Assembly: GCF_015689175.1 (NCBI RefSeq)
Contig: NZ_CP065047.1
Coordinates: 4,030,001 to 4,094,000, forward strand
Length of the DNA stretch: 64,000 bases
Source of the DNA: Mycobacterium kubicae
GTDB lineage: Bacteria; Actinomycetota; Actinomycetes; Mycobacteriales; Mycobacteriaceae
Reading direction: 5' to 3'
The stretch's first letter is position 1; each line of letters starts with the position of its first letter. Below the pieces are notes generated by a model, which saw only the letters and a list, made by a program, of their open reading frames with translations, made no database searches and had not been told where the DNA came from. Below are positions 13,441 to 57,419 of this stretch, piece after piece. A program made the translations under genes and the position numbers.

Positions 13441-13458
13441 GCGAGGGTGGCAGCAGGA

Positions 13459-13472
13459 ACGGTAACCTCGTT
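13459..13472 (+). promoter_or_regulatory. Candidate TetR operator upstream of the TetR-thioesterase fusion
   Basis: The sequence ACGGTAACCTCGTT lies 44 bases before the fusion gene start. The same pattern (ACGGTAA, three bases, CGTT) occurs in reverse orientation at 14577-14590 before the amidohydrolase gene. Two copies flanking one TetR-family gene suggest autoregulation and control of the downstream gene. Confidence 0.5.
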
Positions 13473-13515
13473 CTCGGGGCGCTGTGGCGGCGCACCAGAG
13501 GAGGAGAAACCGCCG

Positions 13516-31213: not shown

Positions 31214-31279
31214 ATCGATGGCATCCTTTGGCATTGACTGACGGTCCTGGAGTACTGACAGCGTAAACGCAAATATTGC

Positions 31280-33548: not shown

Positions 33549-33567
33549 TACAGTAAGCAATCCAGTA
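33549..33567 (+). promoter_or_regulatory. Candidate operator A of the TACWGTA regulon
   Basis: The site TACAGTAAGCAATCCAGTA lies in the 44-base gap between the divergent LLM and carboxyltransferase genes. It fits TACWGTA followed by nine bases and GTA, shared with four other intergenic sites. Ten of the twelve bases after TAC resemble site B (37400). Confidence 0.6.
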
Positions 33568-33581
33568 TGTAAGACAGACGC

Positions 33582-35078
33582 ATGACGAAAGCCGAGGACT
33601 GGGCGCAGACGCTTGCCGACCTGGACCGGCGCCGCGAACAAGCCCGTGCCATGGGGGGAACCGAGCGGCTCGAGAAGCATCGTGGCAAGGGCAAGCTCGA
33701 CGCGCGTGCCCGCGTTCAGCGCCTGCTCGATCCCGGCTCGTTCCGGGAATTCGGCACCCTGGTCGGTGGCGACATCGCGGCCGACGCGATCGTCACGGGC
33801 TCCGGCCGCATCAACGGCGTGCCGGTCATGGTCGGCGCCGAAGACTTCACCACCCTGGCCGGGACCATCGCACCCGGCAGTAATTCCAAGCGCTACCGCA
33901 CCGCCGAGCTGGCGCTGCGCGACAAGATTCCGTTGGTGATGTTGCTCGAAGGCGCCGGATTTCGCCCCACCGGAGCACATTACGGCCGGACGCCGACCGA
34001 TCTGCTGGCGCAGGCACGGTGTTCAGGACGGGTCCCCACGGTCACCGCCGTGCTGGGTCCCTCGGCCGGGCACGGAGCGCTGGTCGCCCCGGTGTGCGAT
34101 TTCACCGTCATGAGCCGCCATGGGGCGATCTTCACCGCCGGGCCGCCGGTGGTCAAAGAGTCGACGGGAGAAGAAATTTCGAAGGAGGATCTGGGCGGAC
34201 CCGACGTCGCGCTCACCAGCGGCGTGATCCACAACGTCGCAGCGGACGACGAAGAAGCGCTCGATACCGTCCGACGCTATCTGTCGTATTTCCCGCCGAG
34301 CGCTTGGTCGTATCCGGCCGCGCTGCCCGCCGACCAGACTGCCGAACCGCGTTCCACGCCGGAGCTATTGGAGATCGTTTCGCGCGACAACCGTCGCGTT
34401 TACGATATGCGCGCGGTGCTCGACGTGGTGTTCGACCGTCCGGACTGGTTTGAGGTGCAGCCGCAGTTCGGCCGGGCGATCATCTGCGCACTGGCGCATC
34501 TGGGGGGACACCCGGTCGCGGTGGTGGCCAACCAACCGCACGTGCTGGCCGGCTCCATCGACGCCGACGCTGCCGACAAGGCCGCGCACTTCATCATGGT
34601 CGCCGACTCCTTTCACCTTCCCATCGTCTTCCTTGCCGATAACCCGGGCATGCTCCCGGGCAGCCGGTCAGAGCGTCAGGGCGTATTACGCAGCGGCGCT
34701 AGGATGTTCGCTGCCCAAACTGCGGCCACGACGGTGAAATTGCACCTGACGTTGCGCAAGGCCTACGGCTTCGGCTCCATGGTCATGTCGCTGATCAGCT
34801 TCGACGACCAGGTGGCCACCTTCGCCTATCCCGGAGCGACCATGGGTGCCATGGGCGCCTCGGCGCTGAGCCGTGCGTCGCACGCGGACGAAGATCTGTC
34901 GGCCAAACTGCGCAACGCCGAACTGCAAGCGTCGTACCGATCGGCCGAGCACATGGGATTCGACGAGCTGATCGACCCGCGGGAGACCCGCGACGCGCTC
35001 CTGGCGTCCCTGCAGCGCGGGCTGTCCAGTCGGCAGGCCGCCGCCGAGCCGGTGACCCGCACCCTGATCATGCCCTGA
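33582..35078 (+). CDS. Carboxyl transferase, acyl-CoA carboxylase beta-type subunit
   Basis: This 498-residue protein has the two-halved crotonase-like carboxyltransferase fold of AccD/PccB/MccB proteins. The N-half contains ELALRDKIPLVMLLEGAGF and the C-half contains DSFHLPIVFLADNPGMLPG and YGFGSMVMS. No biotin carboxylase or biotin carrier gene is nearby, so an alpha subunit would have to come from elsewhere, or it acts in another way. It is transcribed alone from the operator A intergenic region. Confidence 0.85.
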   Translation: MTKAEDWAQTLADLDRRREQARAMGGTERLEKHRGKGKLDARARVQRLLDPGSFREFGTLVGGDIAADAIVTGSGRINGVPVMVGAEDFTTLAGTIAPGSNSKRYRTAELALRDKIPLVMLLEGAGFRPTGAHYGRTPTDLLAQARCSGRVPTVTAVLGPSAGHGALVAPVCDFTVMSRHGAIFTAGPPVVKESTGEEISKEDLGGPDVALTSGVIHNVAADDEEALDTVRRYLSYFPPSAWSYPAALPADQTAEPRSTPELLEIVSRDNRRVYDMRAVLDVVFDRPDWFEVQPQFGRAIICALAHLGGHPVAVVANQPHVLAGSIDADAADKAAHFIMVADSFHLPIVFLADNPGMLPGSRSERQGVLRSGARMFAAQTAATTVKLHLTLRKAYGFGSMVMSLISFDDQVATFAYPGATMGAMGASALSRASHADEDLSAKLRNAELQASYRSAEHMGFDELIDPRETRDALLASLQRGLSSRQAAAEPVTRTLIMP

Positions 35079-35088
35079 CCTTTTCCTG

Positions 35089-35152
35089 CCGCGAGCGTGC
35101 GTGTCTGTACAGCGACACGCCGCTGGCACTGGCATTCTGCGCACGCTCGCGG
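35089..35152. repeat. Long inverted repeat between convergent genes
   Basis: Perfect 13-base arms, CCGCGAGCGTGCG (35089) and CGCACGCTCGCGG (35140), enclose a smaller hairpin GTGTC/GACAC (35101 and 35114). It fills the gap between two convergent genes and ends next to the stop codon of the 35154 gene. It is probably a bidirectional terminator and looks like a member of a dispersed intergenic repeat family. The latter needs a genome search. Confidence 0.65.
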
Positions 35153-35153
35153 G

Positions 35154-36203
35154 CTAGCCGGCGCCTCGATAAGCCGCGATGACGGGGGCCAACTCGTCCG
35201 GCGTCGCGCCGTGCAGAATCACCGCGTCGGCGCCGTAGCCGAACTCCTGACGGATGCGCTGCACACATTGCTGCGCCGATCCGGTTGCCGAAGGCTCCAG
35301 CCATGCGTCGGGGATCAACGTCGCGATGTGCTCGATCTGCTCGGCCGTTGCCTTGTGATCTATCCCGCCGCCTATCGACGTCACCACCGGATCCTGGCGA
35401 AACCGTTGCAGCACAGCGGGATCCCAGTCATTGGTCTGCACCATCAAATCGCCGTAGCCCTGCAGATAGGTGGCCAGCCGAGCGACCGTCTTCTTCAGCC
35501 GCAAGTGTTCGGGCAGGTGGTCGCCGACCGTGGCAAAGCACGACCATACCCGCACGCTGTCCGGGTCGCGGCCCGCCTGCTCCGCGGCGGACTTGACGGT
35601 CTTGACGCAGCGCTGCAGCGTCTCAGGAGTGAAGTAGGTATGCAGGACCACATCGTCGAACACCCGCCCGCCCAGCGCCAGCGTGTTCGGTCCGAAAGCC
35701 ACCAGGGCCAGCCGGATATCTTCGTTGAAATCGCGGTCCAAGAACAAAACCGGGTAGGTGCCCATCGGGCCGTCGTGGTTGAGAATCACCTCCCCGTGCC
35801 ACAGCCGGCGCATGACGTGCGCCCAATCCTCCATCTGGGCGGTGGTGACCGCAGGGATGCCGAAGGCCCCGTAGATAGCGGCGATGCCACGACCGATGCC
35901 CAGGGTGAAGCGTCCGCCGGAAAGCCGATGCATGGTGGTCGCCCAGGACGCGGTGATCAGCGGGTGGCGCGTGTTGTGATTGGTTGCCGCGGTGGCGATT
36001 TGCATGCGCCCCGTGACCGCGCAGGCCGCGCCCACCAGCGAGGAGGCCTCCTTGACATTCCAGCGTTCGGAGATGAACGCGGTGCCGAACCCCAGCTCTT
36101 CGCCGCGGCGGGCCTCGTCCAGCAGCGTCGCCGGGCCTTCTCCCCCGGCTCCGGCCAACAAGTAGTAGCCCAACTCGTCAAGCGGTTGCTCGCGGATCGG
36201 CAC
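35154..36203 (-). CDS. LLM-class F420-dependent oxidoreductase
   Basis: This protein of 349 residues starts at GTG 36203, which overlaps the upstream hydrolase stop. The luciferase-like fold is shown by ELGYYLLAGAGG, ELGFGTAFISERWNVKE and SGGRFTLGIGRG. It resembles mycobacterial F420-dependent TIGR03857-type proteins and is only distantly similar to the 32515 paralogue. It is co-transcribed with an alpha/beta-hydrolase. A role as monooxygenase or dehydrogenase on a lipophilic ketone or alcohol is plausible but unproved. Confidence 0.85.
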   Translation of the reverse strand: MPIREQPLDELGYYLLAGAGGEGPATLLDEARRGEELGFGTAFISERWNVKEASSLVGAACAVTGRMQIATAATNHNTRHPLITASWATTMHRLSGGRFTLGIGRGIAAIYGAFGIPAVTTAQMEDWAHVMRRLWHGEVILNHDGPMGTYPVLFLDRDFNEDIRLALVAFGPNTLALGGRVFDDVVLHTYFTPETLQRCVKTVKSAAEQAGRDPDSVRVWSCFATVGDHLPEHLRLKKTVARLATYLQGYGDLMVQTNDWDPAVLQRFRQDPVVTSIGGGIDHKATAEQIEHIATLIPDAWLEPSATGSAQQCVQRIRQEFGYGADAVILHGATPDELAPVIAAYRGAG

Positions 36204-37345
36204 TAGCGCAGCACCGTCTGCTCGACAACGTCGCGCAAGAACCGTTCGGTGATGCGCTGCACTCGGCGCGAGAACACATGCCCGACATGGCTTCCGTCAT
36301 ACCAATGCAGCTGGCCCTGCCATCGTTGCTGCAACGCGATAGCGGGCTCCCGCATGGCCATTCGATCGTGCCAGGCGCCCACGATGAGCCGGCGTTCAGG
36401 CGGCGGGGCCGGGTCCACGGCCAGTGGGTCGATCACTGACGTCAACTTCGCGACGACTGGCGATGCCAGCAGTTCCCGGAACTCACCGCGCGACGGGCCC
36501 CAGCGCGTCAAGTGCCGGGCGATCATCGCGTTGAGGCCGAGTATGGGTGTGTACAACGCGACCGCGTCGACTGCCGGTTCGAAGTGGGAAACCAGCGCGG
36601 CGACCGGACTGCCCATCGAAATGCCCGCTATCACAACGGCGCTGGCCTTCGGAGCAACCCACTGCACCACCGCCCGCACTTCCGAGACCGCGCGCATCAT
36701 CCCCGCGACGTTGCCCAGCGGATCCATGTCCGGGTATGCGGGCCACTGCCCGCGGCGGATACCGTGTCCAGGCTGGACCGGCATCGCGACGTTGAACCCA
36801 AGCCTCCGGTGCAGACGCCCGATGCGAGATAGCACCATGTCTTCGGATCCGCCTTGACCGGCACCATGCACCCAGATCAGCCACGGCCGCGGCCCGTCAC
36901 GGTGACGGCATATGTGCACGACTGCCCTGGCCGGCCCACTGAGCCCTTCGGCCGCCAACGTCGTCGGCAGCCGCGGATGGTGTTCGAAGGTGACCTGCTC
37001 GTAAGCCAGGCCCGCAATGCGACGCCGCCGTAACCGACTGACCCGCAACGGTTCCGGATCGGCATGCGCACGTTCGATACCCAATGTCGACAGTTCGTCC
37101 GCCGCGGGTGCGCAGGTCTCCAACGCCCGCAACACCCCGGGTCCCCCACTCAGCAGGGAGAAGCCGCTCAACACCAGCTCGTCGAGCATGACCTCGCCGA
37201 ATTGACGCACTCCGCGAACGGAGACGGGCGCCCATCCGGTCGATTCGTGCAGACCCGAGACGGTGCGCGGCACCACCATCGCTAGTTCACGGGCGACGTC
37301 GCGTCCGAGGCCGATGGCGCGGGTCGCCGAGAACATGTGCACCAC
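36203..37345 (-). CDS. Alpha/beta-hydrolase (serine esterase type)
   Basis: This 380-residue protein has a helical N-terminal extension, then an alpha/beta-hydrolase core with VHGAGQGGSED (oxyanion region), nucleophile elbow GISMGS, and a likely C-terminal His in DGSHVGHVF. It is a large cytosolic or membrane-associated esterase without a signal peptide. It is first in a two-gene operon with an LLM oxidoreductase, divergent from the thioesterase-FadD pair, with operator B in between. Confidence 0.83.
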   Translation of the reverse strand: MVHMFSATRAIGLGRDVARELAMVVPRTVSGLHESTGWAPVSVRGVRQFGEVMLDELVLSGFSLLSGGPGVLRALETCAPAADELSTLGIERAHADPEPLRVSRLRRRRIAGLAYEQVTFEHHPRLPTTLAAEGLSGPARAVVHICRHRDGPRPWLIWVHGAGQGGSEDMVLSRIGRLHRRLGFNVAMPVQPGHGIRRGQWPAYPDMDPLGNVAGMMRAVSEVRAVVQWVAPKASAVVIAGISMGSPVAALVSHFEPAVDAVALYTPILGLNAMIARHLTRWGPSRGEFRELLASPVVAKLTSVIDPLAVDPAPPPERRLIVGAWHDRMAMREPAIALQQRWQGQLHWYDGSHVGHVFSRRVQRITERFLRDVVEQTVLR

Positions 37346-37399
37346 CTGCTTGTGTCTGAGTTTCCTTGGCCCGCGCAGCGGCCGATTTGCAGAAATCTA

Positions 37400-37418
37400 T
37401 ACTGTAACCAATTAAGTA
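37400..37418 (+). promoter_or_regulatory. Candidate operator B of the TACWGTA regulon
   Basis: The site TACTGTAACCAATTAAGTA lies 55 bases from the hydrolase start and about 80 from the thioesterase start. It fits TACWGTA-n9-GTA and has outer ATACT/AGTAT arms (37399-37403, 37415-37419). The CAAT core is shared with site A. Confidence 0.6.
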
Positions 37419-37498
37419 TCAACGAGCGCCGGAGTGGTCATGTCGCTGCTCGCCGCGATCCCCCAGACCGACGAGCTTTCCACCGTACGAAAGGCGCC

Positions 37499-38128
37499 AT
37501 GACCGACGCGGCACCCGAAGTCCAGCGTGAGCCCCGAGGCGGCTTTCCCGACGTCAGACCCGTCGACGCTCCGCCCGGGCTGGGCCAATTCGCGGAAGCG
37601 CTGCGCCGCCTGCAAGACCTCACCGTCTCTACCAACCCGGACGCCCAGGCGTGGGCCGCCGCCACCGAGCACGTTGAAAACGCCTGCGCCATGCTGGAAT
37701 CTCACCAGGTAGCCGAGATCGACGTCCCGGCCGGCAGGGTCCTCGAGTTGCCCGGCTTGGGTCATCCGTTGATGCCGCCGTGGACGATCGCCGACGCCAA
37801 CGCCGATGGTGTCACGATGCGCGGCCACTTCACCCGATCACACGTGGGTGGAAACCATGCCGTGCACGGCGGCATGATCCCGTTGTTCTATGACTGGTTG
37901 TTCGGCATGGTGGTCACCACGGCGGGCATTCGCCCCACCCGCACCGCTTACCTGCATGTCGACTACCGCAAGATCACCCCGATCGACGAGCCGTTGACCG
38001 CGCATGGTCGAATCAGCCAGACCGAGGGGCGGAAGGTGTTCATCGCCGCGACCATGACGAGCAACGACGGTGCGCTGCTCACCGAGGCCAACGGCCTCAT
38101 GGTGCGCTTACTGCCCCACCAACCGTGA
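37499..38128 (+). CDS. PaaI-type hotdog thioesterase
   Basis: The start is ATG 37499 (MTDAAPEVQREP), giving 209 residues; earlier in-frame starts would run through the operator. A helical N-terminal part precedes the hotdog domain with GNHAVHGGMIPLFYDWLFG and YLHVDYRKITPI, matching the HGG-x8-D pattern of acyl-CoA thioesterases of the PaaI group. It is followed 10 bases later by a FadD gene, so it may release or proofread the CoA ester made there. Confidence 0.86.
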   Translation: MTDAAPEVQREPRGGFPDVRPVDAPPGLGQFAEALRRLQDLTVSTNPDAQAWAAATEHVENACAMLESHQVAEIDVPAGRVLELPGLGHPLMPPWTIADANADGVTMRGHFTRSHVGGNHAVHGGMIPLFYDWLFGMVVTTAGIRPTRTAYLHVDYRKITPIDEPLTAHGRISQTEGRKVFIAATMTSNDGALLTEANGLMVRLLPHQP

Positions 38129-38138
38129 CGGAGCGCGA

Positions 38139-39791
38139 ATGCCGGCTACAGCAACACAATTTACGGTTCCAGAGGTAGCGGCGGCGGTCGCAGCCGCCAT
38201 CGGAGAAAGAGACTTCATCATCCAGGGCGACCGCCGGTACACCTACCGGCAGATCCTGGAACGGTCGCACCGGCTGGCCGCATACCTGCATTCCCAAGGG
38301 CTGGGCTGCCATACCGAGCGATCCCGACTGGCCGGACACGAGGTCGGACAGGATCTGCTCGGCCTGTACGCCTACAACGGCAATGAGTTCGTCGAGGCAC
38401 TCTTCGGGGCCTTTCAGGCCCGGGTTGCACCGTTCAACGTCAACTTTCGCTACGTCAGGAATGAACTGCAATACCTGCTGGCGGATTCGGGGGCGACCGC
38501 TTTGCTCTACCACGCGGCGTTCGCCCCGCGAGTCGCCGAGGTCTTACCCGATCTTCCGCAGCTGCGGGTGCTGATCCAGATCGCCGACGACTCCGGCAAC
38601 GAGTTGCTGAACGGCGCAGTTGATTACGAAGTGGCGCTGGCATCCAGCGCGCCGGAACCCCCATCGGTTCAGCCCTCGCCGGACGACTTGTACGTGTTGT
38701 ACACCGGCGGTACCACCGGGATGCCCAAAGGCGTGTTGTGGCGACAGCACGACATCTTCATGACGTCCTTCGGTGGCCGCGATCTCTACAGTGGCCAGCC
38801 CGCCGCCTCGGTCGAGGAGATCGTGGCCCGCACGAGCGCGGGCCCCGGCACGAAACTGATGGTGCTGCCGCCGCTGATCCATGGCGCCGCACAGTGGACG
38901 GTGATGACGGCGATGACCACCGGACAGTCGGTGGTCTTCGCTTCGGTGGTCGATCATCTCGACGCCGAGGAGGTGGTGCGCACCATCGAACGAGAGCGCG
39001 TCGCGGTGGTGACGGTGGTCGGTGACGCGATAGCGCGTCCGCTGATCACCGCCATAGAGAAGGGTACGGCCGACGTGTCGTCGTTGGCCGTCGTCGCCAA
39101 CGGGGGCGCACTGTTGACGCCCTACGTGAAGCAGCGTCTGATCGACGTCTTGCCCAATGCCGTTGTGGTCGACGGGGTGGGGTCCTCGGAGACCGGCGCG
39201 CAGATGCACCACCTGTCGACCTCCACAGCGGTGTCAACCGGAACGTTCAATGCCGGGCCGGACACGTTTGTCGCCGCCGAAGACCTGTCGACGACCTTGC
39301 CCCCAGGGCACGACGGCATCGGCTGGCTGGCTCAACGCGGCTATGTTCCGTTGGGCTACAAGGGCGATGCGGCCAAGACCGCTGCGACTTTCCCCGTCAT
39401 CGACGGTGTGCGGTACGCCGTCCCGGGCGACCGGGCCCGCCACCGCGCCGACGGGTCCATCGAATTGTTGGGTCGTGACTCCGTGACGATCAACTCCGGT
39501 GGTGAAAAGATTTTCGCCGAAGAAGTCGAGACGGCGATCGCCTCGCACCCGGCGGTGGCCGACGTGGTGGTCGCCGGACGCCCCAGCGAGCGTTGGGGCC
39601 AGGAGGTGGTGGCCGTCGTGGCGCTCAGTGACGGTGCGCAGGCCGATGCTGACGCGTTGGTCGCACACGCCGCAAAGTCGTTGGCACGCTATAAACTTCC
39701 GAAGGCGATCGTGTTCCGCTCCGTCATCGAGCGCAGCCCGTCGGGCAAGGCGGACTACCGATGGGCCCGCGAGCAGGCGCAGGCCGGCTGA
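38139..39791 (+). CDS. Acyl-CoA synthetase (FadD type)
   Basis: The start is ATG 38139, behind GGAGCG, giving 550 residues, the usual FadD length. AMP-binding motifs are YTGGTTGMPKGV (P-loop), GSSETG, YAVPGDRARH and NSGGEKIF; a C-terminal Lys in SPSGKADYRWA is the adenylation lysine. The order and several motifs (NVNFRYV, DYRWA) recall FadD19, the steroid side-chain CoA ligase, but the identity of the substrate cannot be fixed. It activates an acid for beta-oxidation by the region's dehydrogenases. Confidence 0.9.
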   Translation: MPATATQFTVPEVAAAVAAAIGERDFIIQGDRRYTYRQILERSHRLAAYLHSQGLGCHTERSRLAGHEVGQDLLGLYAYNGNEFVEALFGAFQARVAPFNVNFRYVRNELQYLLADSGATALLYHAAFAPRVAEVLPDLPQLRVLIQIADDSGNELLNGAVDYEVALASSAPEPPSVQPSPDDLYVLYTGGTTGMPKGVLWRQHDIFMTSFGGRDLYSGQPAASVEEIVARTSAGPGTKLMVLPPLIHGAAQWTVMTAMTTGQSVVFASVVDHLDAEEVVRTIERERVAVVTVVGDAIARPLITAIEKGTADVSSLAVVANGGALLTPYVKQRLIDVLPNAVVVDGVGSSETGAQMHHLSTSTAVSTGTFNAGPDTFVAAEDLSTTLPPGHDGIGWLAQRGYVPLGYKGDAAKTAATFPVIDGVRYAVPGDRARHRADGSIELLGRDSVTINSGGEKIFAEEVETAIASHPAVADVVVAGRPSERWGQEVVAVVALSDGAQADADALVAHAAKSLARYKLPKAIVFRSVIERSPSGKADYRWAREQAQAG

Positions 39792-39815
39792 CGCCGCCCG
39801 GTTGAGCACCTCGGT

Positions 39816-40250
39816 TCATACCCGCGGCGGTCCCAGCAGCTCGCAGCCGTATCGGGCTGCCAGAGCAGGGATTTCGCGCTCCGGAGTTCCCTCGACCTGG
39901 TAGACGAGTTGCTCAAACCCACCAGGAGTGATGACGACGAGCAGCCGACCCTCACCAGGCGCTACGTTTCGCCAGCTGTGCGGGGTATTCCTGGGTACCG
40001 TCACGCGGGTTCCCGTCGGAGCGTCGATGATGTCGTCGCCTATGGCGATCCGGTATCGGCCGACGAGGACGTGAAAATGTTCCTCTTCATTGCGGTGCAG
40101 GTGAGTCGGTACGGCACAACCGGGCTCATGCACTGCTTCGATGACGGCATAAGCTCCGTGCGTATCTCGGCTATCGACGCGGACCGTCTGCACTTCACCT
40201 TCAGTGCCCTTCCACCACTTGGTCTTGGGATCCACGTCAGCTCCCGCCAT
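39816..40250 (-). CDS. Cupin-domain protein
   Basis: This 144-residue protein is a single beta-barrel cupin. Motif 1 is THLHRNEEEHFHVLVGRY (His-x-His, Glu, His metal ligands) and motif 2 is RVTVPRNTPHSWRN. It could be a small dioxygenase, isomerase or sensor. It is divergent from a P450, with operator C between, and convergent with FadD, so it is likely controlled with the pathway. Confidence 0.84.
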   Translation of the reverse strand: MAGADVDPKTKWWKGTEGEVQTVRVDSRDTHGAYAVIEAVHEPGCAVPTHLHRNEEEHFHVLVGRYRIAIGDDIIDAPTGTRVTVPRNTPHSWRNVAPGEGRLLVVITPGGFEQLVYQVEGTPEREIPALAARYGCELLGPPRV

Positions 40251-40343
40251 GTTTTCGTCGTTAACCGTACAAAGTTATCACCGGATACAGCCAGCGTCGA
40301 CCGCCCGCCCAGCCGGGGCGCCCGCCCCGAAGACTGACTTGTA

Positions 40344-40362
40344 TACAGTAATTCTTACCGTA
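40344..40362 (+). promoter_or_regulatory. Candidate operator C of the TACWGTA regulon
   Basis: The site TACAGTAATTCTTACCGTA fits TACWGTA-n9-GTA, and the second half is itself TTACCGTAA, so this is the most symmetric of the five sites. It lies 53 bases before the P450 start and about 95 from the cupin start. Confidence 0.6.
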
Positions 40363-40414
40363 AACTGGTTTGCCAACGGTTCATGCGCAAGGCGATCAAA
40401 GGTGTGGAGACCGG

Positions 40415-41617: not shown

Positions 41618-41679
41618 TTGCGTGACTGACGCGCCGCCGCTAGTCGAGTGTGCGTTCAGGGTTTCCAGTGTTTGGCTAT

Positions 41680-41705
41680 GGCGGGCAATTCGCGAGTTTC
41701 CCGCC
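41680..41705. terminator. Hairpin between convergent genes
   Basis: GGCGGG (41680) pairs with CCCGCC (41700), with an AA/TT continuation after one mismatch and an eight-base loop. It lies between the convergent P450 and acyl-CoA dehydrogenase genes, with no U-tract. It is probably a bidirectional terminator. The remainder of the 139-base gap shows nothing else recognisable. Confidence 0.5.
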
Positions 41706-41756
41706 CTGGCTGCACGCTGAGAGCCAGCATTACCCGCTCGGACGCCCTGCGCATCA

Positions 41757-42947
41757 TCAGGCCCGCTTGGCAGGCGCCGAGTAGTTGGGTTTGCCGAGGC
41801 CCAAGACGTACTGCGCGATCATGTTGCGGAAAACTTCCAACGTGCCACCGTAGATGCCCACCAGGGGGGCGAATCGGTAGACGTACTCCGCAGCGCCGTT
41901 ATCGGCGGCGCCCTCGGCGCCGAACGGCAACGCGGACGCGGCCCCGAGCAGATCCATCAAGTCCGGGGAGATGTCCCGCATCGTCTGTGCGATGGCAACG
42001 CGGCCGAAGATGCTGGGCGCCGAGAGAGCCGCCTCCATCCGGGCGACGCTACGGCCCAAACGGTATGCCACCGACCGGTCCTCGATCGGGCGGCGGCCCT
42101 GCGAATCCGGATGTGTGACGCGCGCGGCGGCCTGGTCGACCGCCAAGGTCATGGACCCGGCCTGGTGCATCATGATCGAGGTGTCCTGCAACCCGTCGGG
42201 TGCGGCCGCCACCGCGCCGTGCTCGACGTTGAGCGGCTCACGAAGCACGGTCCATCCCGCGTTCACCTCGCCCAACCGATACTTGTCGTCGACGCGCACA
42301 TCGCTGTAGTAGACGATGTTCGTGCGGTCGCCGTCCACGGTTCGGATGCCGTGGATCTGGATACCCGGCGAATCGAGCGGGACCAGAAACATGGTCAGGC
42401 TGTTGTGTTTCGGCGCGTTGGGGTCGGTGTTGGTGATGAGGAATACGTATTGGCAGTTGTGGGCGCCCGTAGTGAACATCTTCGAGCCGTTGATCAGCCA
42501 ACTGTCGCCGTCGCGCACCGCGCGGGTCTTGCAGGTTGCGATATCCGAACCGCCCTCGGGTTCGGTGTAACCCAGGCAAAGTCGTATGTGTCCGCTGAAC
42601 ACTCCCTGCAGCACAACGTCTTTGATCGCGGGCGAGGCGAATCTGGCCACCGAGCGCGCCACCATGGCGGTGGTGCCCCAGGTCACCCATGGCACCTGCG
42701 CCCGGCGCTTCTCCAGCTCCCAGATGCGTCGGCGAACTCGGGTGAATCCGCCTTCGGATTCGGACTTCCACTCCCCTTCCAGATAGCCTGCGGCACCCAA
42801 CTTCAAGTGCAGATCCTCGTTGAAGTTGTCACCGGTCTCGCGGTCGTGGCGTAACACTTCTTCGGTGACATGGGTGGCCAGAAAACTGCGCGCCTCGTCC
42901 TGGAATGCCTTGTCCGCGTCGGACAATTCGACTCGGGAGAAATCCAT
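41757..42947 (-). CDS. Acyl-CoA dehydrogenase (subunit of a pair)
   Basis: This 396-residue protein has a typical acyl-CoA dehydrogenase body: CLGYTEPEGGSDIATC (FAD loop), SWLINGSKMFTTGAHNC and a C-terminal YGGTLEVFRNMIAQYVLGL in place of the usual GTSEI-x-R. It is last in a five-gene operon starting with an enoyl-CoA hydratase, immediately after a second dehydrogenase subunit (10 bases). A heterotetramer with that partner is likely, as for other adjacent mycobacterial pairs. Confidence 0.87.
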   Translation of the reverse strand: MDFSRVELSDADKAFQDEARSFLATHVTEEVLRHDRETGDNFNEDLHLKLGAAGYLEGEWKSESEGGFTRVRRRIWELEKRRAQVPWVTWGTTAMVARSVARFASPAIKDVVLQGVFSGHIRLCLGYTEPEGGSDIATCKTRAVRDGDSWLINGSKMFTTGAHNCQYVFLITNTDPNAPKHNSLTMFLVPLDSPGIQIHGIRTVDGDRTNIVYYSDVRVDDKYRLGEVNAGWTVLREPLNVEHGAVAAAPDGLQDTSIMMHQAGSMTLAVDQAAARVTHPDSQGRRPIEDRSVAYRLGRSVARMEAALSAPSIFGRVAIAQTMRDISPDLMDLLGAASALPFGAEGAADNGAAEYVYRFAPLVGIYGGTLEVFRNMIAQYVLGLGKPNYSAPAKRA

Positions 42948-42957
42948 CGCTTGGCCC

Positions 42958-44022
42958 CTAAATTCGGGCCGCCGCGAGAGCGCTTTCCCGAGCGGTCACT
43001 ATGTCGGCGATCCGCTGTGCTGTGGTGCCGGGATCACCGCCGGCTAGCGGCCAGCCACGGGCGCGGACCAGGTATGCCGTCGCGGCGGCTTCGGCCGAAA
43101 CACCAAGACCACCCTGGATGTGGACGGCCATGGTGGCGGCTCGCGTTGCTTCCTCCGCCATGAACACGAAGGCCGACGGCGCCAGCTCGGGCCGTTCGTC
43201 GGGTTCGTTCTCCAGGAACCACGCAGCGCGGCGCACGAGGTTGCGTCCGCCTTGCACGGTGATGGCCATGTTGGCCAGTGGATGGGAGATGCCCTGCAGC
43301 GTCGAGATGGGCACACCGAGCGTGTAGCGGTTCTTGGCGAACTCTGCGGCGATGGTCATCGTCTCCTCCACGAGACCTACCAACGCGGCTGCGGTGAGCA
43401 GCCGCCATTCGTCAAGCGCGCGAGAGTAAGTCGCCAAGGCCTCCGGACCCTCGCCCAATACCGTCCGCGAGCCGGCGGCGTCCGGGTCCACCCAAGCCAT
43501 GGGCAGTCGGCCGATGTTGTCCACTTTGGCGGGCCGGGTGTCGAAGCTGAGCCCGGCGATCTGATCACCATCGCGGATGATTACGTGGTCGGCGATCGAC
43601 CCGGTGGGCACCAACCGAACGCCGGGCCCGGGGTCGATGCGGGCGTCCAGCCCGGCGATCTGTTCTCCATTGGCCACGGCCGAGATGCGCTCGCGGGATG
43701 CGCCCAGTCGGTGCAACAGGCGCGCGGCACAGACGTGGTCGATCCAGGGAACCGGAGCCAACGACCGGCCGATCTCTTCGGCCACCAAGGTCAAGTCGAC
43801 CAATGTCGCACCATCACCGCCGGCGGATTCGGGCAGCGCCATCGTTGTGGCGCCCATGGCGCACAAGCGCTCCCACAGGTTCTTGTCGAACCCGGAAAGC
43901 TCTGCGGCGCGAACCGTTTCGATGGGGCAGTGGGTCTTGAAGAATTGCTGATAGGCGCCTTGCACCGCGACGTGGTCCTCCGAGAGGCTGTAGTCCAACC
44001 TGCGCAATTCGAAGCGGTCCAT
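42958..44022 (-). CDS. Acyl-CoA dehydrogenase (second subunit of a pair)
   Basis: At 354 residues it is shorter than a full-length dehydrogenase. The N-terminal helical part (CAMGATTMALPESAGGDGATL) and the C-terminal domain (HIQGGLGVSAEAAATAYL) are recognisable, but the middle FAD-loop motif is degenerate. This is usual for the non-catalytic half of heteromeric mycobacterial acyl-CoA dehydrogenases. Two bases separate it from the preceding amidohydrolase gene. Confidence 0.84.
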   Translation of the reverse strand: MDRFELRRLDYSLSEDHVAVQGAYQQFFKTHCPIETVRAAELSGFDKNLWERLCAMGATTMALPESAGGDGATLVDLTLVAEEIGRSLAPVPWIDHVCAARLLHRLGASRERISAVANGEQIAGLDARIDPGPGVRLVPTGSIADHVIIRDGDQIAGLSFDTRPAKVDNIGRLPMAWVDPDAAGSRTVLGEGPEALATYSRALDEWRLLTAAALVGLVEETMTIAAEFAKNRYTLGVPISTLQGISHPLANMAITVQGGRNLVRRAAWFLENEPDERPELAPSAFVFMAEEATRAATMAVHIQGGLGVSAEAAATAYLVRARGWPLAGGDPGTTAQRIADIVTARESALAAARI

Positions 44023-44024
44023 GA

Positions 44025-44855
44025 TCAGTGCTCCTGTTCGAAGAAGAATTCCTGGGCGTTGTTGTACAGATAGTCGTCGAGCACCTCAGCGGGTAAGTCG
44101 AGCGCCTGAGCCTCGGGCACCACGCGGTGCATGGTCAACACCGGCCAGTCGGAGGCGAAGATGACCTTGTTCCTGCCGCGGGTACGCATGTAGTGCAGCA
44201 GGCTGTCCGGCAATCGCTTGGGCGACCACGCCGACGTCATGATGCGCAGGTTGGCGTACTTGAGCAACAATCGGATCGCCACCTCCCACCACGGATCCGC
44301 ACCGTGGATCATGCACAGCCGCAACTCTGGGAAGCGTACGCATACCCGATCCAGATGCATCGGATGCTGTACCTCCCCGGGAATGGGTGGGCCGGGGATG
44401 CCGGTGTTGATACACAGTGGCAGGCCCAATTCCGCGCACTTGGCGTACAACGGGTAGTACACGGCGTCGCTGGGCGGATATTGACCGTCACCCCAAAAGC
44501 TCGGCCCCACAACGGAATAGGCGACGGGCAGATCGTTGACGATCGCACTGAGTTCGCGCAGCGGCCGCACCGGACGCAGCAGGTTCACTCCCCCCATCGC
44601 GAGCGCGAACCGGTCCGGCTTGGCTTCGACGAACTTGCGCGCGGTGGTCGAGGGATTGGCCAGGGAGTCCATCAGGATGGCCTTCTGCACGCCGTGCGCG
44701 TCCATCTCGTCGAGCAACTCGGACAAGTCGACGGGGGCGAACATCGAGTCAGGGCCTTTGAAGTAGTCGTCTTTGACCTTGCGCATCCAAGTGGGTTGCA
44801 CGTCGGTCTCTCCGAAGTGCACGTTGACCAGGCAGTCGATTACTTTCTGCGTCAT
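44025..44855 (-). CDS. Amidohydrolase family 2 protein with degenerate metal site
   Basis: I place the start at ATG 44855 (MTQKVIDCLVNVHFGE), with AAGGAA upstream, giving 276 residues. An in-frame GTG at 44987, two bases after the previous stop, would add 44 residues that read like protein (TVGWYQGKHFHAVDQ) and may be translated. The barrel motifs are altered: VIDCLVNVHF lacks the D-x-H pair, and LCINTGIPG has Asn where a barrel His is expected. Only the terminal Asp in FASDWPV remains. It is probably a partner subunit of the intact paralogue encoded just upstream. Confidence 0.8.
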   Translation of the reverse strand: MTQKVIDCLVNVHFGETDVQPTWMRKVKDDYFKGPDSMFAPVDLSELLDEMDAHGVQKAILMDSLANPSTTARKFVEAKPDRFALAMGGVNLLRPVRPLRELSAIVNDLPVAYSVVGPSFWGDGQYPPSDAVYYPLYAKCAELGLPLCINTGIPGPPIPGEVQHPMHLDRVCVRFPELRLCMIHGADPWWEVAIRLLLKYANLRIMTSAWSPKRLPDSLLHYMRTRGRNKVIFASDWPVLTMHRVVPEAQALDLPAEVLDDYLYNNAQEFFFEQEH

Positions 44856-44989
44856 ACGTATTCCTTGACGAATGCCTTGGGCGCGGTGAAATGCGCCGAT
44901 CGACTTTTGGTCGACGGCGTGAAAGTGCTTGCCCTGGTACCAGCCCACCGTCATGGTCCGGTCTTTCACGATGGTCCACTCAGTCACGG

Positions 44990-46192
44990 TTAGGCGGCTG
45001 CTGTGACCGTGACACCCAGAAGATTCAAGGCGTTGTCCCGCATCACCTTGCGGATGTCGGACTCGCTGAAACCGGTCAGCTCTTCGACGAACGACACCGG
45101 TGACTCGAGGCCTTCGCCGTGCGGCCAGTCCGAACCGAACAGGATCCTGTCGACACCGATCATGTCGGCCAGCGCGCGAAGGTCGTCCTCGTAATACGGC
45201 GCAATCCACACGTTGTTCTGCAACTGCTCGACCGGGTCCTGGGGAAATAGGCGGGGGTGGTTGTTGGCCACCTTTTTCAGGCGTTTGGCCAACCGGTAGA
45301 CGAAGTACGACCCGTTCTCGATGCTGACGACCTTGAGCTTCGGATGGCGGGTGAAGACACCGTCGACGATCATCGACGCCATCGTGTCGTGAATCGCACG
45401 ATCGTCAACCAGGACCTGGTCCAAGGGATTCGAGGCGCCGAACGCTTCGAACGTCGCCTTGCCGCCCCACATTGCCGCCACTTGCAGATAGCCACTGTCA
45501 CTCAAGTGAAAGCCCACCGGCACACCCGCTTCCGCCAGTCGCGCCCACACCGGATCGTGGCTTGCATCTCCCAACGATCGCGGTTTGACCACCCCTGGCA
45601 CGGGTGCGGGCCGCACCAGGACGAGCTTGGCGCCTCGGCTCAACACAAAATCGACCTCGTCAAGGGCCTGCACCGGGTCGGCCAACGAGATCATCGGTGC
45701 TCCGATGATGCGATGGTCGGGCCGATCGAATCCCCAGTCCTCGTCCAGCCACAAGTTGAAGGCGTGCACCGACGCCATGGTGGCGTCGATATCGTGCTTG
45801 AGCGCTTCTTCGACGCCGCAGCCGAAAGTGGGCAGCATGAACACTGTCTCGATACCTTGAGTGTCCATGACGGCTATACGGGCGTCCCGGTTCTGATACT
45901 CCGGATGGTCGGCCAGGCGTTCGACCCGCATGAGCGACGCCGGATCGACACCGTCGGGAATCTCGCCGCGGAACAGCAGATCCAGACACCCCGGCACGAT
46001 GATCGGGTCGAAGGTCGGGTTGGGGATGAAGCGGTTGACCCGGTCACCGATGATCACCTGAGTGTGCCTGCCGTCGCTGACCATCTGGACACCGCGCCGC
46101 CGAAACCTCCTGTCCAAGTGCCGGGTGAAGGCATCCAGCGGCTCGTAGTAGTGGTTGTCGACGTCAATGGCTTGGTACCCCAAGGTGCGCAT
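44990..46192 (-). CDS. Amidohydrolase family 2 metal-dependent hydrolase
   Basis: This 400-residue protein has the intact-looking ligand set IDVDNHYYEP, GFHLSDSGY and LFGSDWPHGEG. The design is almost the same as in the 14625-15830 protein (IPNPTF, VLVRPAPVPG, HASDSGY/HLSDSGY), so they are paralogues. It is second in the operon, between the enoyl-CoA hydratase and the degenerate amidohydrolase. In CoA-pathway clusters such enzymes can open lactones or rings or remove carboxyl groups. The substrate is unknown. Confidence 0.86.
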   Translation of the reverse strand: MRTLGYQAIDVDNHYYEPLDAFTRHLDRRFRRRGVQMVSDGRHTQVIIGDRVNRFIPNPTFDPIIVPGCLDLLFRGEIPDGVDPASLMRVERLADHPEYQNRDARIAVMDTQGIETVFMLPTFGCGVEEALKHDIDATMASVHAFNLWLDEDWGFDRPDHRIIGAPMISLADPVQALDEVDFVLSRGAKLVLVRPAPVPGVVKPRSLGDASHDPVWARLAEAGVPVGFHLSDSGYLQVAAMWGGKATFEAFGASNPLDQVLVDDRAIHDTMASMIVDGVFTRHPKLKVVSIENGSYFVYRLAKRLKKVANNHPRLFPQDPVEQLQNNVWIAPYYEDDLRALADMIGVDRILFGSDWPHGEGLESPVSFVEELTGFSESDIRKVMRDNALNLLGVTVTAAA

Positions 46193-46226
46193 GATGATCC
46201 TTCCCGCCCGTGTCCGCCGGCAAACG

Positions 46227-47063
46227 CTAAGTGTCGTTTGAAGTGAGGGCAGGGAACTGTGGTGGCCGCTTCTGCAAGAAGCTCACGATTCCCTCGATGA
46301 CGTCCGGTCGTGGCATCGCCTCATGCAGCAGGACCTCGGCGCGGGCGGTGGCTTCCACCACGTCACGTGTGGCATCGGCGTAAACCTGCCGCTTGATTAC
46401 GGCCAGTGCCGAGGGCGAGCAGTTCCGGGCCATGTCCTCGGCGTATTGCAGCGCCCGAGGCAGCAGATCTTCCGGCGGCACAACCTCTTTGACGAGACCT
46501 AGCTTCGCCGCCTCGTCGGCCAGAAACGTCCGACCGCTCAACAACAAGTCGAGGGCCACACCCCATCCGGTCAACCGGGGCAGGATCCAGGAGATACCGA
46601 ATTCGGCGATCAGTCCGCGGCGCGCGAACACGGCGGCGAACTTGGCGCCGGCGGCGGCGAACCGCACGTCGCACATCAGGGCTTGGGTCAGACCGATCCC
46701 CACACAAGAACCGTTGATCGCTGCGATGACCGGCTTGCGGAGCATGGTCACGAAGTGCGGCGGGCGTTCTCCGACCAGATCGGCCAGGTTGGTCCTGCCC
46801 GCCTTTTTCATCGTTTCGTCGTATCCGGCCGCCGATTCCGGCGCACCCAGGTAGGCCCCCGCGCAGAAGCCCCGCCCCCGGCCGGTTATGACGATCACTC
46901 GAACGGCCGGATCGGCTTCGGCGCGGTCGATCGCCGCGTAGAAGCCGGCAGCGATATCGGGGCCCCAGGCATTGAGTCTGTCCGGGCGATTGAACGTCAG
47001 GACGGCGACCCCGCTGGCTGTGGCGTCGTAGAGTACCGCGTCGTCGGCATCGGCGGTGCTCAA
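46227..47063 (-). CDS. Enoyl-CoA hydratase/isomerase (crotonase family)
   Basis: I place the start at TTG 47063 (then STADADDAVLYDA), because GGTGAGGAGG sits five bases upstream; an in-frame ATG at 47108 would overlap operator D. That gives 278 residues. Crotonase motifs are LTFNRPDRLNAW, GRGRGFCAGAYLG (oxyanion hole) and NGSCVGIGLTQAL. The first catalytic Glu of classical hydratases cannot be identified with confidence. It is first gene of the operon with two amidohydrolases and an acyl-CoA dehydrogenase pair. Confidence 0.84.
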   Translation of the reverse strand: MSTADADDAVLYDATASGVAVLTFNRPDRLNAWGPDIAAGFYAAIDRAEADPAVRVIVITGRGRGFCAGAYLGAPESAAGYDETMKKAGRTNLADLVGERPPHFVTMLRKPVIAAINGSCVGIGLTQALMCDVRFAAAGAKFAAVFARRGLIAEFGISWILPRLTGWGVALDLLLSGRTFLADEAAKLGLVKEVVPPEDLLPRALQYAEDMARNCSPSALAVIKRQVYADATRDVVEATARAEVLLHEAMPRPDVIEGIVSFLQKRPPQFPALTSNDT

Positions 47064-47107
47064 TACGACCTCCTCACCAACCAGATTCCGGGCCCACTCA
47101 GTACGCA

Positions 47108-47126
47108 TACTGTATACCTATCGGTA
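47108..47126 (+). promoter_or_regulatory. Candidate operator D of the TACWGTA regulon
   Basis: The site TACTGTATACCTATCGGTA lies about 45 bases before the TTG start of the enoyl-CoA hydratase gene. It fits TACWGTA-n9-GTA, and its ACCTATC core is also present in site E (49560-49578). Confidence 0.6.
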
Positions 47127-47234
47127 CTGCATTCCACAACGGCCGCCGCCGCGGCGTGCAGGCGGTCGTGGCCGGCGAATTCCGGGTCGTGGGAAGCATG
47201 TCCACCGTCGTGGCGCGGGCGGCTCGCGCAAAGC

Positions 47235-47265
47235 GAGGGCGCACGCCAGCGTGGCGTGCGCCCTC
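47235..47265. terminator. Perfect 14-bp hairpin terminator
   Basis: GAGGGCGCACGCCA (47235-47248) pairs perfectly with TGGCGTGCGCCCTC (47252-47265) around a GCG loop, with no U-tract. It lies 15 bases beyond the stop of the minus-strand 47280 gene. The 170-base gap here holds only this hairpin and operator D. Confidence 0.75.
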
Positions 47266-47279
47266 TTCATGGGAGTTTG

Positions 47280-47552
47280 CTAGCGGGACACTCGATTACG
47301 GGTGACCAGCTTCACGATGGCCAGCAAGATGACCGCGCCGAGCAGACATGTCAGGAACGAGAACAGCAATCCGCCGCCGGCTACGTCGACGCCGAAGCCG
47401 CGGAGCAGGAATCCTCCGATCAATCCTCCGACGATGCCGACCACGATGTTGAGAACCAGACCCATCTGGGCGTCCGTTTTCATGATCTTGCTGCCGATCC
47501 AGCCGGCCAGGCCGCCGATGATGATCCAGCCGATGATACCTAGGGTGAGCAT
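47280..47552 (-). CDS. GlsB/YeaQ/YmgE-type small membrane protein
   Basis: This 90-residue protein consists almost wholly of three hydrophobic segments with the family's Gly-rich pattern (IIGGLAGWIGSKIMK, IVVGIVGGLIGGFLLR). Members are general-stress membrane proteins of unknown mechanism, once named transglycosylase-associated. It has its own promoter region and a strong hairpin behind its stop. It looks unrelated to the surrounding catabolic genes. An AGGAAAGGA ribosome binding site precedes ATG 47552. Confidence 0.87.
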   Translation of the reverse strand: MLTLGIIGWIIIGGLAGWIGSKIMKTDAQMGLVLNIVVGIVGGLIGGFLLRGFGVDVAGGGLLFSFLTCLLGAVILLAIVKLVTRNRVSR

Positions 47553-47651
47553 TTCCAGTCCTTTCCTGAAGTCCCGGCACGCGAAGTTTCGCGCGCCGTG
47601 ATGAATACCGGTATGCCCGCCGAATGCTGCCCGTAATCGTGCTTACCGGCG

Positions 47652-48665
47652 TCAGCCCGAGGCGCTGATGAGCCCGAGGCGTCGATAGGCCGACTGGATC
47701 TGCGTCTTGGCCTCGGCCGGTAACTCCGCCTGCGGTGGGCGCGAGTGCGGGTAGTCGCCGATCGGCAACCCCAGCAGGGACGCGCAATACTTGAAGGCGC
47801 CGCCCCAGTGGGTGAAATACTCCGGACGGCCGGGGTAGCAGGTCCACCATGACCCGAGATCCAGATCGAACTGGTCGAGGCCTGACTCGCGCCCGTAGTC
47901 CATGGCTTCGAGCAACTTGTCGTTGTAGACCAACTCCCAGTATTCGGAGAACAGCCGCCGCTGCGGCGTCTCGAACAGGTAACCGGCGGTGCCCAGTTGC
48001 GCCGGACATACGATTCCGGCCCGCAGCCATCCGGCGCGGTACACGGTCCTGTCGCACTCCCAAACCACGAGATCCGGCGCGAGTTGGTGCAATCGCCTAC
48101 TGCTCTCCGGCCGGAAAGCTCCCTCTTTGGTAGCGCATACGGCGGGCACTTCGTGGTAGATGCGGGCGCTCTCGCTCGGAGTCAGGACGTAGCCCGACGA
48201 CGGTGAATTGAACATGCCCAGTGCAATATCGGTGCGCGCGGCGATGTAAGAGAAGAATCTCAGCACTCCTTCGCCGCCGTGCGTCTCCATCATCGGGGTT
48301 TGCAGGTAAGCAATATCGGCGCCGGCCTGCTGGGCGTGCAGCGTCAATTCCAGACAGTCCTTGGCCGTCATCGCCGAGGTACATGCTTGGACGACGACGT
48401 CGGGGTTGGCGCGCCGGCCTTCCTCGATCGCCACCTCGAGCAGGCGCTTGCGTTCGTCCATGGTGAGCGCCCAGAACTCGGCAATTCCGCTGGTGCACCA
48501 CAACATTGGATGCCCGAGATCACCGACACAGTAGCGGATCAAGGTTCGGTAGGCGTCCCAGTCGATTTCGTCTCCGTCGGCACCGCAGAACGGTGTGTAC
48601 AGCGAGTCGCCTATGCCCCGCAAGGCATTACGCGCCCACGCCCGCGCCTCCCCGGCTGTCGCCAT
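47652..48665 (-). CDS. Dihydrodipicolinate synthase-family aldolase
   Basis: This 337-residue protein is a TIM-barrel class-I aldolase of the DapA/NanA family. The Schiff-base Lys lies in CATKEG and the substrate loop reads FNSPSSGY, where DapA has a Tyr in YNxP. The length and the extra C-terminus suit hydratase-aldolases or keto-acid aldolases rather than lysine biosynthesis. It follows an SDR gene by 21 bases. A retro-aldol or hydratase-aldolase step on a degradation intermediate is a reasonable inference. Confidence 0.82.
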   Translation of the reverse strand: MATAGEARAWARNALRGIGDSLYTPFCGADGDEIDWDAYRTLIRYCVGDLGHPMLWCTSGIAEFWALTMDERKRLLEVAIEEGRRANPDVVVQACTSAMTAKDCLELTLHAQQAGADIAYLQTPMMETHGGEGVLRFFSYIAARTDIALGMFNSPSSGYVLTPSESARIYHEVPAVCATKEGAFRPESSRRLHQLAPDLVVWECDRTVYRAGWLRAGIVCPAQLGTAGYLFETPQRRLFSEYWELVYNDKLLEAMDYGRESGLDQFDLDLGSWWTCYPGRPEYFTHWGGAFKYCASLLGLPIGDYPHSRPPQAELPAEAKTQIQSAYRRLGLISASG

Positions 48666-48686
48666 GATGCCTCCTTCTGGCCGGTC

Positions 48687-49484
48687 TCAGGTGAAGTCCG
48701 AACCGCCGTCGACGTTGATGTTGGCTCCGGTCATGTAGGAGTTGCGCCGGGACACCAGGAAAGCCGCGACGGGGCCGATCTCTTCGGGCAGACCGGCACG
48801 CGGCATCTGGGCGGGATGCCCGAAATGTTCATCGATGGCTTCCATCAGCCGGTAGGGATCGTTGCCGTCGACGCCTACCGAGTTTGCCCAGCCGATCAAT
48901 GACTCCGACGCGATGCTGCCCGGTGACACCACGTTGACCAAGATCTCGTCCTTGGCCAACAGCAGCGACAAATTCTTGGAGACACTGGTCACTATTGCCT
49001 TTGCAGCGGTGTAAGCGGGCAACATGACGCTTTGCCGTTGCGTCGAATGCGCCGAGAAGTTGACGATTCGCGCCCATTGCGCCTTGCGCAGCAAGGGAAG
49101 AGCCGAACGCACGCAGCGCACCATGCCCAACACTCCGTCGTCGACGGTCTGACGCCACTGCTCGTCGGTCAGGTCTTCAAAGCTGCCGGCAGCACCCGGT
49201 CCGACCGTGTTGACCAGCACGTTGAGTTCGCCGTGCCAGCGCTCACCCACTTCGGCGAACACCTTCTCGACCGACACCGCGTCGCGGATGTCGGCGGCGA
49301 TTCCGAATGCCTCCGGGCTGCCGCGATCGGTGAGGTCTGACACCGCGGTGTCAAGAGCATCCGGTGAACGACCGACGATTGCTACTCGGGCACCATCGTC
49401 GGCAAGGCAACGGGCCGTGGCTAATCTCATGCCACGGCTGCCGCCGACGACCACTGCGGTGGCGTTCGCCAGACCAAGGTCCAT
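48687..49484 (-). CDS. Short-chain dehydrogenase/reductase
   Basis: This 265-residue protein has a Rossmann start VVVGGSRGMRLA, with Arg20 where the third glycine of TGxxxGxG is expected. The NNAG position reads NTVGPG. Catalytic Tyr158-x3-Lys162 (YTAAK) and Ser near 144 are present. The GRS after strand two suggests NADP. It is first gene of the two-gene unit with the aldolase; operator E lies 76 bases upstream and is shared with the divergent TetR gene. Confidence 0.84.
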   Translation of the reverse strand: MDLGLANATAVVVGGSRGMRLATARCLADDGARVAIVGRSPDALDTAVSDLTDRGSPEAFGIAADIRDAVSVEKVFAEVGERWHGELNVLVNTVGPGAAGSFEDLTDEQWRQTVDDGVLGMVRCVRSALPLLRKAQWARIVNFSAHSTQRQSVMLPAYTAAKAIVTSVSKNLSLLLAKDEILVNVVSPGSIASESLIGWANSVGVDGNDPYRLMEAIDEHFGHPAQMPRAGLPEEIGPVAAFLVSRRNSYMTGANINVDGGSDFT

Positions 49485-49559
49485 GGCCTAGTCTGTCGCT
49501 GACCCGATGGCTTGAGCCCGGTCGTGTTTCGCCCGCGCAGCGGTGGATACCAAAAAGCC

Positions 49560-49578
49560 TACGATAGGTATTACAGTA
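49560..49578 (-). promoter_or_regulatory. Candidate operator E of the TACWGTA regulon, at the tetR promoter
   Basis: On the minus strand it reads TACTGTAATACCTATCGTA, fitting TACWGTA-n9-GTA. It lies between the divergent SDR gene and the TetR gene (start 49628), so a TetR protein here would control its own transcription. Core ACCTATC is also in site D. Confidence 0.62.
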
Positions 49579-51585: not shown

Positions 51586-51589
51586 GGCC

Positions 51590-57272: not shown

Positions 57273-57419
57273 CAGTCGGCGGCCCGACATTGCTACCAGC
57301 CGAGACCGATGTACGCATGATGGCGGATGTTTCGCGGCGCCGGGCTTTGCATCCTGGCTAACATGAAAGAACTCGATCCTCGAGCGGGTATGCCGCGACT
57401 GGACTGGAGCGATGCGGGC

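Follow-up and report, generated by a model that had tools for sequence, protein, structure and literature searches.

The 64,000-nucleotide stretch of the Mycobacterium kubicae genome analysed here (assembly GCF_015689175.1, contig NZ_CP065047.1, positions 4,030,001 to 4,094,000; hereafter the window) carries a catabolic gene cluster containing five copies of a 19-bp sequence and a TetR-family regulator (49628..50425, plus strand) that very probably acts as the autoregulated repressor of the cluster through these predicted operators, designated A to E. Local TetR regulons of this kind are familiar from KstR2 and BkaR, and the conclusion that the present one is real and conserved is well supported. 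The confinement of the sites to one cluster of the genome, their co-occurrence with the TetR gene, their placement, the conserved site ahead of tetR itself and their dyad symmetry together argue strongly, on comparative sequence grounds, for the local TetR regulon put forward in an earlier note on this DNA. About seventeen genes of the window, annotated by domain only, become by this proposal one testable regulatory unit.

The earlier note had recognized five sites conforming to the pattern TACWGTA-N9-GTA, and each was recovered as an exact match at the position and on the strand claimed. Site A (TACAGTAAGCAATCCAGTA, 33549..33567, plus strand) occupies the gap between genes for an LLM oxidoreductase (TIGR03617) and a carboxyltransferase, with 11 and 14 bases to their start codons; site B (TACTGTAACCAATTAAGTA, 37400..37418, plus strand) lies between an esterase/LLM (TIGR03857) unit and a thioesterase/FadD unit; site C (TACAGTAATTCTTACCGTA, 40344..40362, plus strand) stands ahead of a cytochrome P450 gene, and site D (TACTGTATACCTATCGGTA, 47108..47126, plus strand) ahead of an enoyl-coenzyme A (CoA) hydratase operon. 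Site E (TACTGTAATACCTATCGTA, 49560..49578, minus strand), the proposed autoregulatory site, separates an SDR/aldolase unit from tetR and lies 49 bases ahead of the tetR start. All five fall outside coding sequence when the thioesterase and the hydratase are taken to start near 37500 and 47087, respectively. These starts were redrawn because the mechanically called open reading frame (ORF) of the thioesterase contains site B, and because the first possible ATG of the hydratase, at 47108, overlaps the first base of site D; the four relatives of the hydratase that were compared align from residue 7 or later. Of the genes originally tied together by the sites, the present account keeps LLM/P450, carboxyltransferase, esterase/LLM, thioesterase/FadD, P450, the hydratase operon, SDR/aldolase and tetR. 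The cupin gene (39816..40250, minus strand) was dropped from this list, its membership being doubtful: no homologue (at least 40% of length, 1e-8) was found in 23 related stretches, to which the search was confined rather than extending to whole genomes, and the gene is probably a local addition.

As the pattern had been fitted to the five sites, the fair tests of it are the rest of the genome and other species. Across the whole genome (6,016,837 bases, both strands), the five window sites are the only exact matches, so that the proposed regulon survives the genome-wide scan by which the earlier note had asked that it be challenged; a letter-reversed control of the pattern gave 9 matches. When one mismatch was allowed, 37 places were found, comprising the five sites, 5 second registers or reverse readings within the cluster, and 27 elsewhere. 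Within the window, 300 letter-permuted patterns of the same spacing gave at most one match each, against five for the real pattern, and dinucleotide shuffles of the window gave a mean of 0.01.

To refine the shape of the operator, all exact matches were collected from the window, from 40 related-genome stretches and from 80 loci of named mycobacteria, the best 80 of 283 that surround an orthologue of the 49628 TetR. They number 306, of which 92 are distinct, or 76 after merging of orientations. Positions 13-16, left free in the original pattern, favour T (43), A (48), C (61) and A (40) among the 76 distinct sites, which makes the second half TACAGTA, the mirror of TACTGTA. Written in full, the site is an imperfect palindrome of 19 bp, TACTGTA-N5-TACAGTA, with a 5-bp centre, and this is a better notation than TACWGTA-N9-GTA; such dyad symmetry is as expected for a dimeric TetR. 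A perfect palindrome occurs at site C in several relatives, for example TACTGTAATTCTTACAGTA ahead of the P450 gene. With two or fewer mismatches allowed, the palindrome is confined in the M. kubicae genome to sites A, B, C and E; site D has three mismatches. The letter-reversed control gave 32 readings and the real palindrome 8, indicating that the latter is rare outside the cluster. Further bases had also been said to be shared within the pairs A/B and D/E. For D and E this was borne out by a common ATACCTATC, offset by one base, which recurs in related species, whereas the likeness of A and B (15 of 19 bases identical, counted by eye) carries less weight because B is placed differently in relatives, and it was set aside as evidence.

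The product of the proposed repressor gene pairs a TetR helix-turn-helix domain (TetR_N, PF00440; 46.7 bits, cut-off 24) with a TetR-type C-terminal ligand domain (TetR_C_1, PF02909; 52 bits, cut-off 21), and its assignment draws on these domain matches, on its recognition helix and on its co-occurrence with the sites. Among 151 genomes of the family, with orthologues called at 166 bits or more and sites counted as near within 60 kb, 21 possess the TetR, each with one or more exact sites near it (76 near sites in all, from transcribed positions); any site is present in 26 of the 130 genomes without an orthologue, 32 sites in total. A sample of 118 genomes from the genus, in which the TetR was called at 1e-40 and a perfect palindrome counts twice, once per strand, places the regulator in 92; two or more matches occur in 86 of these versus 2 of the 26 lacking it, with medians of 7 and 0. 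Distant orthologues from three other-genus genomes (G038, G044 and G120; 37-44% identity) keep the helix-turn-helix stretch VGVTSIYWYF with at most one change, and the tetR genes of G038 and G120 have a site immediately ahead of them. In these two genomes (L156:9671 and L157:9848, respectively) the site divides tetR from divergent genes for a periplasmic binding protein and a branched-chain-type ABC permease/ATPase.

Several genomes carry a second TetR paralogue, 50-60% identical to the first and about 20 kb from it (G099:C11:75024, G147:C1:1791613, G052:C1:5292037 and others), which in the three named adjoins the P450 gene with site C. The recognition helix is the same in the two aligned copies (G099 and G147), and two repressors may therefore share one operator. 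A perfect palindrome upstream of a TetR gene in G028 (L158:10104-10122) was dropped from the evidence because the protein has only 25-26% identity and a different recognition helix; the palindrome there reflects either convergence or chance.

Conservation across mycobacteria is extensive. Exact sites are present in all 80 named loci, 213 altogether, while in the same loci other spacings of the same letters gave 0-7 matches, complemented letters 0-33, and 300 permuted patterns no more than 11. Site E, the palindromic candidate operator ahead of the regulator's own gene, was found in 78 of 81 sources, and D in 61. The 19 bp of E are nearly letter-identical, with a major-base fraction of 1.00 (in part preset by the search expression used) versus 0.53 and 0.60 in the 60-bp flanks, and a short stretch on either side is likewise conserved. 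The junctions marked by the sites were seen again in 23 stretches taken from 20 other genomes, with the greatest regularity inside the genus and with some rearrangement beyond it: LLM (TIGR03617)/carboxyltransferase at A, esterase/thioesterase-FadD at B, P450 at C, the enoyl-CoA hydratase operon at D and SDR/tetR at E. A site between the same genes as B is seen in G069, G124, G147 and G052. Under a slightly wider pattern, 67 of 84 sites in these stretches lie -60 to 400 bp from the start of a homologue of a window gene, some of these matches being weak; homologues of at least 50% identity preceded by a site include TetR (13), enoyl-CoA hydratase (13), LLM (9), P450 (8), carboxyltransferase (8) and SDR (6).

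Relatives also possess a sixth operator, F (TACTGTATGGGTAACCGTA, L142:11505), of which the window has no copy; it usually lies about 2.5 kb past the tetR start, in 60 of the 81 sources, ahead of an operon that includes members of the enoyl-CoA hydratase and AMP-ligase families. In three genomes of the genus, two overlapping sites 12 bp apart (G249:C3:424424-424454, G136:C115:169472-169502 and G156:C231:14544-14574) occur on a contig other than that of the main cluster and mark a possible further target.

A number of observations weigh against assigning these sites to the 49628 TetR. The related genomes are not independent samples. In TetR-bearing genomes of the family, 18 sites lie away from the gene, and 17 of the 84 sites in the related stretches are remote from the start of any recognized homologue. 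Within the genus, 7 of the 26 genomes lacking the TetR nevertheless contain matches (four in G216), and five of the 92 possessing it (G173, G187, G211, G229 and G233) have no exact site. G211 and G187 are 73% and 89% complete, respectively, and the proteins of G229 and G233 are only 45% identical; G173, with a TetR of 78% identity, is 99% complete. G044 has sites near its tetR and none ahead of the gene. On plasmid pYLL1 of Rhodococcus sp. YL-1, a 43% identical TetR adjoins a catabolic cluster with genes for acyl-CoA dehydrogenases, a carboxyltransferase, a thioesterase, a thiolase and a ligase, and the 68 kb examined hold no exact site, nor any with three or fewer mismatches ahead of tetR. 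The best palindrome there, with two mismatches and overlapped by another with three, falls between SDR and thiolase genes, and three more with three mismatches fall where the gene table has gaps. The average for permuted palindromes (two or fewer mismatches) is 0.03. These degenerate sites offer support that is weak at best.

The sites might instead be true operators of another regulator, such as the GntR/FCD protein encoded at 50893-51678 or a different member of the TetR family, of which the genome has many (143 TetR_N matches). The GntR gene is a close and well-conserved neighbour, accompanying the TetR in 10 of 10 genus genomes of the family sample. On the other hand, 58 of the 151 genomes of the family have a homologue of it, and 43 of these 58 lack the TetR (an overlap counted from the listing). 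Among the 11 TetR-bearing genomes outside the genus it is lacking at 1e-40 in 6, and the copies in the other 5 are only 40-44% identical and either belong to different contigs or are separated from the sites by 60 kb or more. Together with the position of site E ahead of tetR, and of a site directly upstream of the distant tetR genes of G038 and G120, this makes control by another protein improbable.

Less probable again is that the sites are promoter elements rather than repressor operators. Mycobacterial -10 elements have a loose TANNNT shape, to which TACTGT, within the sites, and TACGAT both conform, and the sites do lie near start codons; yet a -10 hexamer needs neither a second half nine bases further on nor dyad symmetry, and would be expected genome-wide and independently of a TetR gene, whereas these sites are confined to one cluster. 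A scan of the region for sigma-70-like promoters found no excess (2, with 3.0 expected). The operators may well overlap a -10 element. That the pattern is a product of chance or of post-hoc selection, having been fitted by eye to five sites, can hardly be credited in view of the zero further exact matches in the genome and the conservation across species. Control of the cluster by the 49628 TetR accordingly stands as the preferred interpretation.

By analogy with the TetR family, we infer the following mechanism. A TetR dimer would bind the 19-bp TACTGTA-N5-TACAGTA at A to E, between or just ahead of the operons of the cluster, covering the promoters of LLM/P450/SDR, carboxyltransferase, esterase/LLM, thioesterase/FadD, P450, the enoyl-CoA hydratase operon, SDR/aldolase and tetR. 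The operators lie near the start codons of divergent or single operons, which the bound repressor would block. A substrate or intermediate of the pathway, or its CoA ester, would probably bind the C-terminal domain, free the TetR and turn on the whole cluster. Derepression in a tetR mutant, or a releasing ligand, would lead straight to the substrate, as was the case with the cholesterol genes that KstR and KstR2 control.

The closest parallels are KstR2 and BkaR, both autoregulated TetR proteins whose palindrome marks a small number of promoters, largely from a single cluster. KstR2 is a mycobacterial autoregulated TetR-type repressor with a local regulon of 15 genes, and its palindrome occupies three intergenic regions within one catabolic cluster (PMC3068626). 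The system proposed here resembles it in regulator type, autoregulation, palindromic motif and restriction to one catabolic cluster, and differs, by eye, in the motif (AnCAAGnnCTTGnT, 14 bp, versus the present 19 bp) and in its genes, those of KstR2 serving cholesterol and those here including two F420-type LLM oxidoreductases, two P450s and amidohydrolases. BkaR is likewise an autoregulated TetR-type protein, a dimer on a conserved palindrome, with accD1 among its target genes (PMC3920632). Type, autoregulation and dimeric binding to a palindrome, as proposed here, are shared; the BkaR motif, GTTA(N)T(N4)A(N)TAAC, differs by eye from TACTGTA-N5-TACAGTA. The tetracycline repressor TetR has the same PF00440 and PF02909 domains, and TetR class A is the nearest solved chain of the 49628 protein (E 3.6e-15); the latter nevertheless scores 80 bits against a cut-off of 265 for NCBIfam NF010319, and no efflux pump was found among the window genes adjoining the sites. 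Its match to MftR2 (NCBIfam NF038211) is 41.1 bits, below the cut-off of 285. A literature search covering few subscription journals found no paper on this regulator or motif, and the text of one survey (PMC4482099), whose 30 motifs are given as logos unreadable as text, one of which might resemble this motif, contains none of MSMEG_22, MSMEG_225, MKAN, TACTGTA and TACAGTA.

The cluster genes can be followed outward from the sites. To the left of A, on the minus strand, lie an F420-dependent LLM oxidoreductase of the MSMEG_2256 type (TIGR03617; 32515..33537), a cytochrome P450 whose nearest solved relatives include P450terp (31280..32749) and an SDR oxidoreductase (30383..31234) that is a probable later gene of the same unit. 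The P450 ORF, within which the P450 proper begins, overlaps the preceding LLM ORF, and the two probably share an operon. To the right is an acyl-CoA carboxylase carboxyltransferase (33582..35078, plus strand). Flanking B are a second F420-dependent LLM oxidoreductase, of the MSMEG_2249 type (TIGR03857; 35154..36203, minus strand), and an alpha/beta hydrolase, the esterase (36203..37345, minus strand), on one side, and on the other a 4HBT thioesterase (37500..38128, plus strand, start inferred) and an acyl-CoA synthetase of the PRK07798 family, the FadD (38070..39791, plus strand). Site C precedes a cytochrome P450 (40370..41617, plus strand). Operon D, on the minus strand, begins with the enoyl-CoA hydratase (46227..47087, start inferred); also encoded here on that strand are two amidohydrolase-2 family proteins (44990..46192, and 44025..44985 with start inferred) and two acyl-CoA dehydrogenases, one (42958..44022) with IpdE2 as its best NCBIfam match, under the cut-off, and the other (41757..42947) nearest among solved chains to Tcur3483 (6wy8). 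Operon E, also on the minus strand, begins with an SDR oxidoreductase (48687..49484) and includes a DHDPS-type aldolase/lyase (47652..48665).

The first amidohydrolase matches over its full length the solved structure 4dzi, which we take to be MAP2389c. In published records MAP2389c bears the annotation of an amidohydrolase and MAP2394 that of a tetR regulator, and gene order together with this presumed identity suggests that both are orthologues of cluster genes.

Two P450s, two F420-type LLM oxidoreductases, an acyl-CoA ligase, two acyl-CoA dehydrogenases, a hydratase, a thioesterase, an esterase, a carboxyltransferase, an aldolase, two SDRs and two amidohydrolases make up a gene set that fits a route in which some branched or cyclic compound is first oxidized to an acid and then undergoes CoA-dependent breakdown. 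Synteny is the evidence for the single undescribed pathway of the earlier note, and the cluster genes would, on that evidence, act together. Our guess is a branched or cyclic, terpenoid- or steroid-like substrate, the clues to which are overall weak and mixed. Among the P450s, one stands near P450terp, with the unnamed P450 3tkt as best solved match, and the amidohydrolase, besides 4dzi, resembles PtmU3 (4.3e-18) and DitZ (5.2e-07), likenesses that might hint at terpenoids. One acyl-CoA dehydrogenase is nearest Tcur3483 and 4x28, presumably steroid-type heteromeric enzymes, which might hint at steroid-like side chains; we hold neither hint firmly. The carboxyltransferase is nearer the propionyl-CoA carboxylase beta chain (best 262.7 bits, 1vrg) than that of geranyl-CoA carboxylase (165.3 bits), and for the FadD encoded at 38070 no relative of solved structure was found at 1e-40.

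A wider proposal, advanced tentatively and, when all its parts are taken jointly, somewhat more apt to fail than to hold, is that the genus as a whole shares this undescribed catabolic regulon, which would have an operator code peculiar to it, match the KstR2 regulon roughly in size and be directed at a compound of the kind just named; that other species add operon F and often a paralogous TetR, giving two repressors for one operator; and that regulator and operator are older than the pathway. The last part is suggested by the occurrence of the same pair before a branched-chain-type ABC importer in two other genera.

Some further features of the region deserve mention. In G124, G069, G147 and G085, an intact acyl-CoA synthetase gene of about 1.6 kb lies between the two amidohydrolase genes; in the window (44900-45320) it is missing apart from what appear, by eye, to be short remnants, and one pathway step may have been lost or taken over by another ligase. 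The statement of the earlier note that the region has only one TetR gene holds for 33-50 kb and not for the 64-kb window, in which a second TetR_N domain occurs at about 13,558. It belongs to a protein (13447-14541) that fuses a TetR DNA-binding domain to a thioesterase domain of the 4HBT family and has a copy of 86% identity in G085; this fusion is possibly a regulator that binds or cleaves acyl-CoA. Finally, the large regulator encoded at positions 57327-60671 combines cyclase-like and AAA/NB-ARC ATPase domains with a LuxR-type helix-turn-helix.

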